From assembly GCA_944342055.1 (NCBI GenBank), contig CALVME010000010.1, positions 1 to 53,768 on the forward strand: DNA of 53,768 bases. Direction: 5' to 3'. The stretch is from an uncultured Clostridia bacterium (GTDB taxonomy: Bacteria > Bacillota > Clostridia > Christensenellales > Borkfalkiaceae). How positions within the stretch are numbered: the first letter of the stretch is position 1; every line of letters starts with the position of its first letter. This document shows, piece after piece, positions 31,724 to 35,150 of the stretch. The notes beneath the pieces were generated by a model. It saw only the letters and a list, made by a program, of their open reading frames with translations, made no database searches and was not told where the DNA came from. The translations under genes were made by a program, and so were the position numbers.

Positions 31724-32709
31724 TGAATAAAATAGCGATCGATCTCGGATCTGCGGTGACCAAAATTTACAAAATCGGGAGCGGCATCGTGCTTGCCGAA
31801 CCTTCCTGCGTGGCGATGAACACGGCGGATTCTTCCGTCAAGGCGATCGGCGAAGACGCCAAGAACCTCATCGGCAAGACGTCGGACTATACGACCATCG
31901 TCTTCCCCGTGTTCGAAGGGGAGATCGTCAACGAAAAGCTGGCGTCGACCATGCTCAACCATTTCTTGTACAAGGCCGGCGTCAAGAGCGGCGCCGAAGC
32001 GGTGTTCTGCGTGCATTGCGGATTTGACGCGAAAGTGCAGGCGATCTATCAGAAGATCGCTTCCGCCTGCGCGTTGCGCAGGGTGTCGTTTGTGGAGAAT
32101 CCCATCCTCGCGGGACTGGGGGACGACGTCTCCTTCACGGAGGAGGAACCCGCCTTTTGCATCGACATCGGTCACGGCGTGACGGACATTGCGGCGTTCT
32201 CGTCGGACGGCATCATCGCGGGCATCTCCATGAACATCGGCGGCGGCAGCATCGACGTACATATCATCGATCACCTTGCGGAGCTTTACGGGCTCAAGAT
32301 CGGCACGCTGACGAGCGAAAAAGTCAAAATGACGGTGGGCAGTCTGTTTGAAACGGACAACCAGAGCATGGTGGTGAGCGGCAGAGAGATGGCGACGGGC
32401 AAACCCGTCTCCAAAGTCGTCTATGCGCCCGACCTGTATTTCCCGTTGCAGGCGCACATCGACAAGATCATCGAGTATGCCCTGCTCGTGCTCGGCAAAC
32501 TTCCCGCCGAAGTTTCGGCGGTCATCCGCAAAAACGGCATCCATATTTCGGGAGGCACGGCGAAGATCGCCGGCATCCGCGAGTATTTCGCAAAACAGTT
32601 GCAGATGGACGTGCATCTCGGCGAAGAGCCGCAGATGTCCGTCATCTTAGGCGGCGGCAGAGTGGTGGGCAATCCCGAATTGCTGCGCCGCGTCAGGGCG
32701 GAAGTGTGA
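31723..32709 (+). CDS. mreB: MreB-like rod-shape actin homologue
   Basis: The 328-residue ASKHA protein begins MNKIAIDLGSAVTKIY (phosphate-1 loop) and has FCIDIGHGVTDIAAFS (phosphate-2), ISMNIGGGSIDVHII and HISGGTAKIAGIREYF (adenosine loop). ATG 31723 follows AGAGGTGA. The phosphate-2 Gly-Gly-Gly-Thr of typical MreB is GHGVT here, so it is somewhat divergent. No mreC or mreD follows; the next gene, in GTGA overlap, is a membrane glycosyltransferase-like protein. It would guide lateral wall synthesis. Confidence 0.87.
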   Translation: MNKIAIDLGSAVTKIYKIGSGIVLAEPSCVAMNTADSSVKAIGEDAKNLIGKTSDYTTIVFPVFEGEIVNEKLASTMLNHFLYKAGVKSGAEAVFCVHCGFDAKVQAIYQKIASACALRRVSFVENPILAGLGDDVSFTEEEPAFCIDIGHGVTDIAAFSSDGIIAGISMNIGGGSIDVHIIDHLAELYGLKIGTLTSEKVKMTVGSLFETDNQSMVVSGREMATGKPVSKVVYAPDLYFPLQAHIDKIIEYALLVLGKLPAEVSAVIRKNGIHISGGTAKIAGIREYFAKQLQMDVHLGEEPQMSVILGGGRVVGNPELLRRVRAEV

Positions 32710-34316
32710 ATACGAACGAAACGCATCAATATAAAACAGAAAGAGCGGAAAAAGGCATTTTTGCCGCAGTTGACATTTGTTTGACTGCGGCAATGTGCTT
32801 TATTCTTTTTTTGCTCGTTCTCGATGCGATCTTCTCCTTTTCTTACCCGTGGAAGACGACGGCGCGCGGGGAAAACCTGGGGCTGATCGCCTTTGCATTC
32901 GGGGCGCTCGCCCTTCTCTGCCTGTATCGTCGCAAGCGGAAGATCGGAAATTTCGCGAGGTGTATCGCCATCGTCGCAGCCGCCGCTTTCGTCGTGCAGG
33001 CCGTTCTCATGTCCATGCTGTACGCATATGCGCGCGGCGACGCGGGCACGGTCTCGGAATTTGCGCGCCGTCTCGTTTACGGCGAAGATCAGGGCGATTA
33101 TCTCGCATATTTCTCTTCTTACCGCAACAACCTCTTTCTCGCGGAATGCGAAGCCGCCGTCATCTGGGCGTGTCGGCTGCTCCATATCGGCAACTGGCGG
33201 CTCGTGCTCATCCTGCTCGGCTGCGCGGCGGCGAGCGGGAGCGGCGTTTTGTTTGCTTTTACCGCGCGCCGCGTGTGCAAGAGCGACGCGGTCGCTTTGC
33301 TGTTTTATGGCATTTTTATCGGCTACGTCGTCCTGTCCCCGAGAAATACCGTCCCTTACTCGGACGTCTATGGCATGATCTTCCCGATCGCCGCACTCTT
33401 TTTGCTCTCGCTTCCGCTCTCGGGCGGCAGGCGGTTCGGCGCGAACGCGGGTGCGGGCGCGCTCGCCATGATCGGCGCGGCGCTCAAGCCCACGGCGGCG
33501 ATCATGCTCATCGCGGCATGTCTGGTGGGCGCGGTGAAGCTGTGCTGTGCGGCGGACAGAAAGGAGCGGGCGATCTCTCTCGGGTGTCTCGTCGGCGGCG
33601 CGCTCGCGGGGTATCTGCTCACGGCGGCGCTCCTGCTTCTGTTGCCGTATTCCTTCGACGACGAGCAGAAGATCGGGCTATGGCACTATCTCATGATGGG
33701 GGCGAACGAGTCCACGACGGGGACCTATTCTGCGGAAGACAACGCGTTTTCCAAGAGTTTTCTGACGGCGGCGGAGCGCGCGGCGGCGAACCGTGCGGAG
33801 TTTTTCGCCCGCGTCAAAGACATGGGCTTTTTCGGTTATCTCGGATTTCTGGGCAGGAAACTGCTTTGCACGTTCGGCGACGGGGCGTTCGGCTGGGCGT
33901 ATGAGTGCGAGTTCGTGACGGGCATTCCCGAGACGAACGCGCTGGGAAGCATCCTGCGAGCGCTTTTCCGCGCGGAGGGGGCAGCCTATCGCGTCTATGC
34001 CGTGTGCGCGCAGGCGGTCTGGTGTTTCCTGCTCGTCTGTATGGTCGGCAACGTTTTTGCCCGTTCGGACGAGACGGGGCGCGTCGTTTCGCTGACGATC
34101 TGCGGCGTGGTGCTCTATCAGCTCCTGTTTGAGGCGGGAGCGCGGTATCTGTATCTGTTCCTGCCGTTTTTTCTCCTGTCCGCGGCGAGCGGTTTTGTCG
34201 GATGGCGGGCGTTTGTGAGGGAAAAGAGGACGGAGCGGAAGATCGGCAAAGAGCGGGCGGAAGCGACGGAAAAGGGAGGCGAAGAGCCGAAAGAGCGGGC
34301 GGAAACGCAGAACTGA
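32706..34316 (+). CDS. Large multi-pass membrane protein, GT-C/GT39-like
   Basis: A 536-residue protein starting at GTG 32706 in overlap with the mreB stop. It has about eleven hydrophobic helices and an outer loop with FSSYRNNLFLAECEAAVIW, resembling the first loop of dolichyl-phosphate-mannose mannosyltransferases, plus GAALKPTAAIMLIAACLVG and a YLYLFLPFFLLSAASGF helix near the end. The hydrophilic tail after residue 490 is rich in Lys, Glu and Arg. A sugar-transfer role at the cell wall would suit its place next to mreB; family assignment is tentative. Confidence 0.65.
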   Translation: MNTNETHQYKTERAEKGIFAAVDICLTAAMCFILFLLVLDAIFSFSYPWKTTARGENLGLIAFAFGALALLCLYRRKRKIGNFARCIAIVAAAAFVVQAVLMSMLYAYARGDAGTVSEFARRLVYGEDQGDYLAYFSSYRNNLFLAECEAAVIWACRLLHIGNWRLVLILLGCAAASGSGVLFAFTARRVCKSDAVALLFYGIFIGYVVLSPRNTVPYSDVYGMIFPIAALFLLSLPLSGGRRFGANAGAGALAMIGAALKPTAAIMLIAACLVGAVKLCCAADRKERAISLGCLVGGALAGYLLTAALLLLLPYSFDDEQKIGLWHYLMMGANESTTGTYSAEDNAFSKSFLTAAERAAANRAEFFARVKDMGFFGYLGFLGRKLLCTFGDGAFGWAYECEFVTGIPETNALGSILRALFRAEGAAYRVYAVCAQAVWCFLLVCMVGNVFARSDETGRVVSLTICGVVLYQLLFEAGARYLYLFLPFFLLSAASGFVGWRAFVREKRTERKIGKERAEATEKGGEEPKERAETQN

Positions 34317-34436
34317 GGCGGTTGCATGCGGTTTCAGGCGGAAAGCCGAGAAGTCGGGGACCGCAAAGGAAAAAATCAAAAGGCGGGCGTTTGCCGCTCC
34401 GCCCATAGGGAATTTATCATATCTGCTCAAAAACGC

Positions 34437-34465
34437 TTGAAATTTTATTCGATTTCAGATAAAAT
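34437..34465 (+). promoter_or_regulatory. Promoter of the GNAT leader RNA
   Basis: -35 TTGAAA (34437-34442), 17-base spacer, -10 TAAAAT (34460-34465). Transcription is expected from about 34471. Confidence 0.82.
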
Positions 34466-34470
34466 CAAGA

Positions 34471-34593
34471 TGTCATCGGAGGACAGTACACCGTAGTGTA
34501 GGGGATAGTAAGCAAACTGCTTTCAGGCCGCCTGTCAGAAAAGATGTCGAGTGAGCTCGGTTAAACGCGGATTGCGTTTTTCCGAGCTGTTTT
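34471..34593 (+). ncRNA. Candidate riboswitch-like leader of the GNAT acetyltransferase gene
   Basis: Between promoter and gene lies a leader of about 140 bases with an aptamer-like fold. An outer helix GTCATC/GATGTC (34472-34477 with 34543-34548, one mismatch) encloses GACAG/CTGTC (34482-34486 with 34532-34536). Inside are hairpins TACAC-CGTA-GTGTA (34487-34500) and AAGCA-AAC-TGCTT (34510-34522). A competing hairpin CAGG-CCG-CCTG (34524-34534) would break the second helix. A terminator stem follows at 34554-34588. No class can be assigned with certainty; guanidine-IV (mepA motif) is the first one I would compare. Confidence 0.6.
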
Positions 34594-34598
34594 ATTTA
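34554..34598 (+). terminator. Leader terminator in front of the GNAT gene
   Basis: AGCTCGGTTAAACGC pairs with GCGTTTTTCCGAGCT around GGATT (two T-T mismatches), followed by GTTTTATTT. It ends 16 bases before the start codon, so expression requires antitermination or readthrough. Confidence 0.75.
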
Positions 34599-34613
34599 GG
34601 GAGGTCGATTTTC

Positions 34614-35150
34614 ATGAATATCGAATTAGTACCGCTTGCGGAAAATGACAGAGAACAATTTATTCTTGACAATCAATGGTCTTTCAAATACGGAGCAATG
34701 ATTGAGTTTGGGGAGCGAGACAATCATATCGATACCGAAGGGGAAATGATTGCAAGGAAAACAATCGAACATTGCATTGATGCGCCGGATAATGTTGCAT
34801 ATCGCATTACGTCGGACGGTAAAAACGTTGGCGGTGCAATACTTAAAATCGATAAGAAGACACAACACAATCATTTGGAAATACTCTTTGTAATGCCGGA
34901 AGAACATACCAAAGGGATTGGCTATGCCGCGTGGAAACAAATAGAAGCAATGTATCCTGATACGAAAATATGGGAAACTTGTACCCCTTATTTTGAAAAA
35001 AGAAACATTCATTTTTATGTAAACAAATGCGGTTTTCAAATCGATCAATTTTGGTGCGAGCGTTTTCGACCTGAATGCGATATTCCTGAAGACGATAATC
35101 AGGACGGACCGGATGAAATGTTTCGGTTTATAAAAATTATGAACAAATAA
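34614..35150 (+). CDS. GNAT family N-acetyltransferase, AT-rich
   Basis: ATG 34614 is preceded by GGGAGG at 9 bases. The 178-residue protein has the GNAT core: VAYRITSDGKNVGGAILKID, then LEILFVMPEEHTKGIGYAAWKQIEAM, where the KGIGYA loop corresponds to the acetyl-CoA pyrophosphate motif, and FYVNKCGFQIDQFW. Codon use (AAA, AAT, TAT, ATT) is far more AT-rich than in any neighbour, pointing to recent acquisition. Substrate unknown; the leader suggests induction by a small molecule. Confidence 0.88.
   Translation: MNIELVPLAENDREQFILDNQWSFKYGAMIEFGERDNHIDTEGEMIARKTIEHCIDAPDNVAYRITSDGKNVGGAILKIDKKTQHNHLEILFVMPEEHTKGIGYAAWKQIEAMYPDTKIWETCTPYFEKRNIHFYVNKCGFQIDQFWCERFRPECDIPEDDNQDGPDEMFRFIKIMNK

Follow-up and report, generated by a model that had tools for sequence, protein, structure and literature searches.

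By gene context, the nearest described relatives of the leader analyzed here are the guanidine-IV riboswitch (GGAM-1, mepA) and its orphan variant Gd4v, both of which occur 5′ of GNAT and MATE genes. Gd4v shows enrichment in gut metagenomes, and the substrates of its GNAT enzymes proved not to act as ligands (PMC9788692). Guanidine-IV has a kissing loop between two hairpins that interferes with the terminator stem (PMC11611296) and conserved nucleotides at the terminator tip (PMC8632094); for GGAM-1, just one conserved CG dimer and a small number of conserved Gs have been described (PMC7736828). We examined the leader at positions 34437–34613, forward strand, of a 53,768-nucleotide (nt) stretch of DNA (the window, whose numbering is used throughout) from an uncultured Clostridia bacterium of the Borkfalkiaceae (GenBank assembly GCA_944342055.1, contig CALVME010000010.1). 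It precedes a gene for a GNAT N-acetyltransferase of 178 amino acids (aa), which begins with ATG at 34614 and ends at 35150. The leader is a conserved RNA, and a chance fold is ruled out. Comparative sequence analysis makes it likely that this RNA is a self-contained sensor, most plausibly of a riboswitch class that we provisionally call undescribed, acting as a transcriptional ON switch for detoxification genes.

When the GNAT protein was used as query, 80 loci were found, most of them in metagenome-assembled genomes (MAGs) of gut Clostridia, and their upstream regions were then read. The element lies just 5′ of the gene in 72 of the 80, in long forms and in short forms (∼63 nt) without an extra hairpin, and most relatives also carry a promoter-like site directly 5′ of it. 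The RNA can exceed the gene in conservation: in three loci (L080, L107 from the cultured Anaeromassilibacillus sp. An200, and L047) it is ∼95% identical over ∼92 nt, while the GNAT proteins are 61–71% identical to that of the window. A covariance model matches the window at 34471–34561 (E = 7e-14), the single copy in the source genome. The element is present in 38 of 40 whole genomes with a related GNAT, in almost every case as one copy 5′ of that gene. Only 3 of 398 genomes spread over the phylum gave a strong match, so its distribution is patchy. A stricter order-wide search pattern missed the long forms, including the window's own, due to a gap limit. No copy was found in the viral contigs searched, and no match in the phages searched.

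The window carries the long form (34472–34560), an aptamer-like domain followed by a hairpin, P4. Helix P1 joins CAUC (34474–34477) to GAUG (34543–34546) and encloses an internal loop made of the invariant GGAG (34478–34481) and AGAAAA (34537–34542; consensus GGAUAA across the alignment). Within it, P2 pairs GACAG (34482–34486) with CUGUC (34532–34536), as seen in the fold and in the wider alignment, and P3 is the hairpin UACAC-CGUA-GUGUA (34487–34500; strands 34487–34491 and 34496–34500), with the conserved loop context CCGYAG. The optional extra hairpin of the long forms occupies 34510–34522. P4, the putative anti-terminator, is CGAG-UGAG-CUCG (34548–34559), with CGAG at 34548–34551 and CUCG at 34556–34559.

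These helices are maintained across homologs. In an alignment of 43 elements, standard pairs fill 96.8% of pair cells, compared with 26–40% when the 3′ partners are slid, and 99 cells are double-changed against 33 in shuffles. When MATE, ABC, and plasmid copies were included in a wider alignment (n = 44), 96.5% of cells were paired and 115 were double-changed against 38, with double changes at 11 pairs. P1 shows the compensatory change CAUC/GAUG to CACC/GGUG in 20 of the 43 elements and another, UAUC/GAUA, in unit 2 of the ABC loci described below; P4 changes from CGAG/CUCG to CAAG/CUUG and to CGGG/CCCG, with double changes at three pairs. Under a tree-based null, in which the observed substitutions were re-dealt along the tree, five pairs are significant at E < 0.05 (alignment columns 7–83 in P1; 18–32, 19–31, 21–30, and 22–29 in P3). 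The first-pass annotation of this leader, made from the DNA letters, had proposed covariation among homologous leaders as a check, and it is present.

Conservation also extends to nucleotides outside the helices. The unpaired GGAG, CCGYAG, and GAUAAG/GAUUAG strands are near-invariant, and the P3 loop reads CCGTAG in 68, CCGCAG in 5, and CCATAG in 1 of 74 sequences. Such near-invariant positions are as expected for a putative binding pocket. One idea is a pseudoknot between the CCG of the P3 loop and a CGG 3′ of P4, whose columns hardly vary.

Folding energies of the window's own RNA are by themselves only moderately unusual, so that comparative evidence was needed. The RNA at 34467–34590 folds with −41.8 kcal/mol (z = −2.63; 5 of 200 shuffles equally good) and its terminator segment with −21.7 kcal/mol (z = −3.77; 0 of 200). 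It is the occurrence at 72 of 80 loci, the pairing, and the covariation that establish the leader as real.

The intrinsic terminator (34554–34597) consists of a stem at 34554–34588 followed by GUUUUAUUU to 34597, and its position is conserved in relatives. It is absent from the list of an automated terminator scan, probably because the stem has an internal loop. In the window the 3′ strand of P4 is also part of the terminator, and the same holds for 70 of 72 other GNAT leaders, where the 5′ arm of the terminator is the P4 3′ strand (84 of 720 when the terminator region was shuffled). Loci serving MATE and ABC genes (L156, L166, L167, L213, L210, and L211) have another design, in which GGAUAAGAUGUCGG, the conserved strand itself, is the pairing partner of the 3′ arm. 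Of ten further loci tested, eight have a terminator that takes up a strand of the conserved fold. Because these differing terminators all consume such a strand, an ON switch is the best explanation and is well supported: whatever stabilizes the conserved fold would block termination. The direction of switching is one that we infer. The first-pass annotation had described a near-consensus promoter, a compact multi-helix element, an alternative helix, and a terminator arranged as a transcriptional ON switch. Its parts are all present: a sigma-70 type promoter TTGAAA-17-TAAAAT (34437–34465; 10/12), the element, P4 as the alternative helix, and a terminator ending 16 nt before the ATG, which takes its strand from the conserved fold. 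A Shine–Dalgarno sequence, GGGAGG, can be read at 34599–34604.

In the proposed mechanism, the nascent RNA without ligand would fold the terminator (34554–34588 and the U tract), and transcription would stop before the GNAT gene. A small molecule would bind the core, at the P1–P2 internal loop (GGAG/GGAUAA), at the P3 loop (CCGYAG), or at both, and hold P1 closed. P1 presumably stacks on P4, and with P1 closed the adjacent P4 hairpin would retain its CUCG strand, which would block the terminator and allow the GNAT gene to be transcribed.

Two features typical of riboswitches are thus found, a covarying conserved structure in the 5′ untranslated regions of several gene families and an expression platform mutually exclusive with that structure. 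Four observations weigh against this interpretation. The aptamer part by itself is no more stable than its shuffles (z = −0.10); P2 is barely supported in the tree test; the P4 pairs reach E values of 0.09–0.15 there, which is suggestive; and two of the ten further loci, L165 and the plasmid copy L228, show no clean terminator in the stretch folded.

The range of genes served also speaks for a riboswitch, since one element precedes non-homologous genes: two GNAT subfamilies, MATE transporters (PF01554), and ABC exporters (PF00664/PF00005). Within the window's own family, MATE genes follow it at eight loci (L156 and L165 among them), ABC exporter genes at five (L157, L166, L167, L213, and L214), and a kinase-like gene and then a MATE gene at two (L164 and L169). 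The gene between element and MATE gene at the latter two resembles cytidylate kinases (MKKIITVSREFGSGGRELGKRLADYLG...), which suggests that it is part of the same response. Weaker paired modules precede MATE genes in L210 and L211, and both genomes also hold a GNAT copy. The second GNAT subfamily is served in L229, and further GNAT-like genes in L005. Two more MATE cases (L147 and L148) come from another family of the phylum, and one copy lies on the Selenomonas ruminantium plasmid pSRC2 (30774–30863). At that plasmid locus (L228:2501–2660), a complete element and a terminator-like hairpin are followed by an interrupted open frame that begins with residues similar to those at the start of the MATE gene of L147.

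Several exporter loci are more elaborate. Two element-like modules stand in tandem before the exporter genes of L210, L211, L166, L167, L213, and L214. The ABC loci have two terminators, and a degenerate CGGAG...CGUA module lies between unit 1 and its terminator arm. Tandem modules could represent a two-input or cooperative arrangement.

The controlled enzyme matches the GNAT family (PF00583, E = 2.9e-8), and its AlphaFold model has the GNAT fold, with a predicted local distance difference test score (pLDDT) of 86. A sequence search of the PDB found no relative, and NCBIfam has no named family for it. A fold search returned generic GNATs at 10–19% identity, with the polyamine acetyltransferases SpeG and PaiA and an L. 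curiae GNAT (8osp) near the top. Matches this generic do not allow the substrate to be named; an amine is plausible, judging from the modeled fold. Small-molecule binding by the leader is inferred. Judging from the genes under its control, which encode an N-acetyltransferase and exporters of the MATE and ABC types, the probable ligand is a toxic molecule of amine-like or drug-like character, or an ion, met in the gut. The first-pass annotation had suggested that the ligand may be the substrate of the enzyme, a relation that did not hold for the GNAT enzymes of Gd4v (PMC9788692).

Leader and GNAT gene appear to have moved together as one cassette, as the comparison of sequences suggests. The GNAT gene has 38% G+C within a window of 57% G+C. 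A unit of promoter, RNA, and gene (34402–35150, ∼750 bp) is 84% identical to L032, a contig of a MAG labeled Bacilli whose flanks are unrelated; the label may be wrong, and the unrelated flanks stand regardless. In a genome of the same genus, a TetR-like gene separates argH from a nearby mreB-like gene, and there is no GNAT gene. The first-pass annotation had called the GNAT gene acquired, and this is borne out by its base composition, by the cassette in a distant MAG, and by its absence from the same-genus mreB–argH region. Upstream of the leader, 32706–34316 encodes a membrane-like protein of 536 aa with no Pfam match; in the two same-genus loci that were read, argH has neither the gene for this protein nor the GNAT gene next to it.

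Taken as a whole, we lean, with less confidence than in the sensor itself, towards a new class, found neither in Rfam 15 nor in the open literature searched, which would sense a toxic molecule of animal guts, turn on acetylation and export genes, occur at times as tandem modules before exporters, and spread as a sensor-plus-enzyme cassette among distantly related gut bacteria. Orphan riboswitches have repeatedly exposed unsuspected cell chemistry, with guanidine biology as an example. Here, acetyltransferase, MATE pump, and ABC exporter genes are linked by a single RNA fold across many gut bacteria, and this shared set of detoxification and export genes means that the ligand should be a compound that gut bacteria must neutralize or expel. 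Identifying it would reveal a chemical against which these bacteria need defense.

Of the competing explanations, the one that fares best is that the element is itself a guanidine-IV riboswitch or Gd4v, and we consider it unlikely. It draws on the shared GNAT and MATE targets, the terminator-based ON switch, and the gut enrichment of Gd4v (PMC9788692). An Rfam search, another check that had been proposed, matched no family at the gathering threshold in Rfam 15, and permissive E-values gave chance families only. A guanidine-IV yardstick was sought via sugE loci and plasmids, and only Guanidine-I was found, as was the case for the 20 sugE-type (SMR) loci searched with Rfam 15. Rfam 15 may lack a guanidine-IV model, so its silence is not decisive against that class, and features stated in the published descriptions were tested instead. 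Against the conserved terminator tip of guanidine-IV, 73 terminators of our element carry 41 different apical loops; against the single CG dimer of GGAM-1 (PMC7736828), it has at least three conserved ones (CGGAG, CCGYAG, and UCGRG) plus the invariant GGAG. Neither of the commonest partner genes, sugE for guanidine-IV and a transaminase for Gd4v, accompanies it: no sugE lies downstream of the elements read, a pattern scan of 30 PF00893 loci found no element, and the genes seen, a limited sample, comprise GNAT, MATE, ABC exporter, and a kinase-like gene with MATE, and no transaminase. In the course of these searches, two leaders 5′ of SMR-family genes (L120 and L128), neither of them in Rfam, were seen to have a common loop UUAGGCC...GAAG with GCC/GGC loop–loop complementarity; these two-hairpin, kissing-loop-like leaders may be guanidine-IV riboswitches.

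An RNA-binding antiterminator protein, or another trans factor for which the element would be the cis site, is similarly improbable. BglG/SacY-type antitermination also uses conserved hairpins that overlap a terminator, as here, but its sites have a smaller core and fewer conserved unpaired nucleotides than this element. The genes served are unrelated and no common regulator gene was seen adjoining the element; moreover, the cassette in which the leader spreads contains one gene and no regulator, and transfer of leader and gene, or more exactly transfer of the two alone between distant hosts argues against the need for a host protein partner.

Ribosome-mediated attenuation with a leader peptide, as in many antibiotic-resistance genes, would suit the GNAT, MATE, and ABC exporter functions, and 28 of 72 leaders have a start codon after a Shine–Dalgarno-like GGAGG with a closed frame of at least four codons. 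Yet this frame (VYRSTVMPD and similar) comes mostly from one near-identical subset, starts 2 nt from the GGAGG, and is lacking in the other 44. Conservation tracks helices with compensatory changes, not codons. We rejected this very unlikely explanation on the missing frames and the helix-based conservation. An ordinary constitutive terminator behind a leader with chance helices, for which the poor z-score of the aptamer part alone could be cited, is already refuted by sequence and structure that are conserved, with covariation, at 72 GNAT loci and in front of several further gene families.

Open-literature searches for riboswitch candidates with GNAT, MATE, or multidrug genes led no nearer than the guanidine-IV and Gd4v papers, and the main-text passages found in surveys of candidate and attenuator RNAs hold nothing that matches. 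The first-pass annotation had named guanidine-IV (mepA) as a possible match and otherwise a new class. The gene context, GNAT and MATE (PMC9788692), agrees with the former; the RNA, in its terminator tip and CG dimers, does not, nor was the sugE association seen, and the evidence favors the new class.

In outline, guanidine-IV and our element are alike as small, terminator-controlled ON switches in Firmicutes with MATE and GNAT targets. They differ in architecture: guanidine-IV is built on kissing loops or a pseudoknot between two hairpins (PMC11611296), whereas our element has P2 and P3 inside P1 and a terminator that extends away from the conserved strand. Its terminator tips vary freely where those of guanidine-IV are conserved, it has several conserved CG dimers in place of one, and no sugE (COG2076) association was seen for it. 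Gd4v comes closer in its gut enrichment, GNAT and MATE targets, orphan ligand, and predicted ON switch. More than half of Gd4v representatives, however, precede a PRK07324 transaminase, none of which was seen with our element. Since the published structure of Gd4v is described as nearly that of guanidine-IV, the architectural differences just listed hold for it too. Guanidine-I (ykkC) and other efflux-linked riboswitches share with the element the control of exporters and detoxification, and differ in that the element has no Rfam match. On published descriptions, then, the element is set apart from both Gd4v and GGAM-1, with a small chance of identity with Gd4v, and is best regarded as a guanidine-IV-like ON switch in outline and not as a member of that class.
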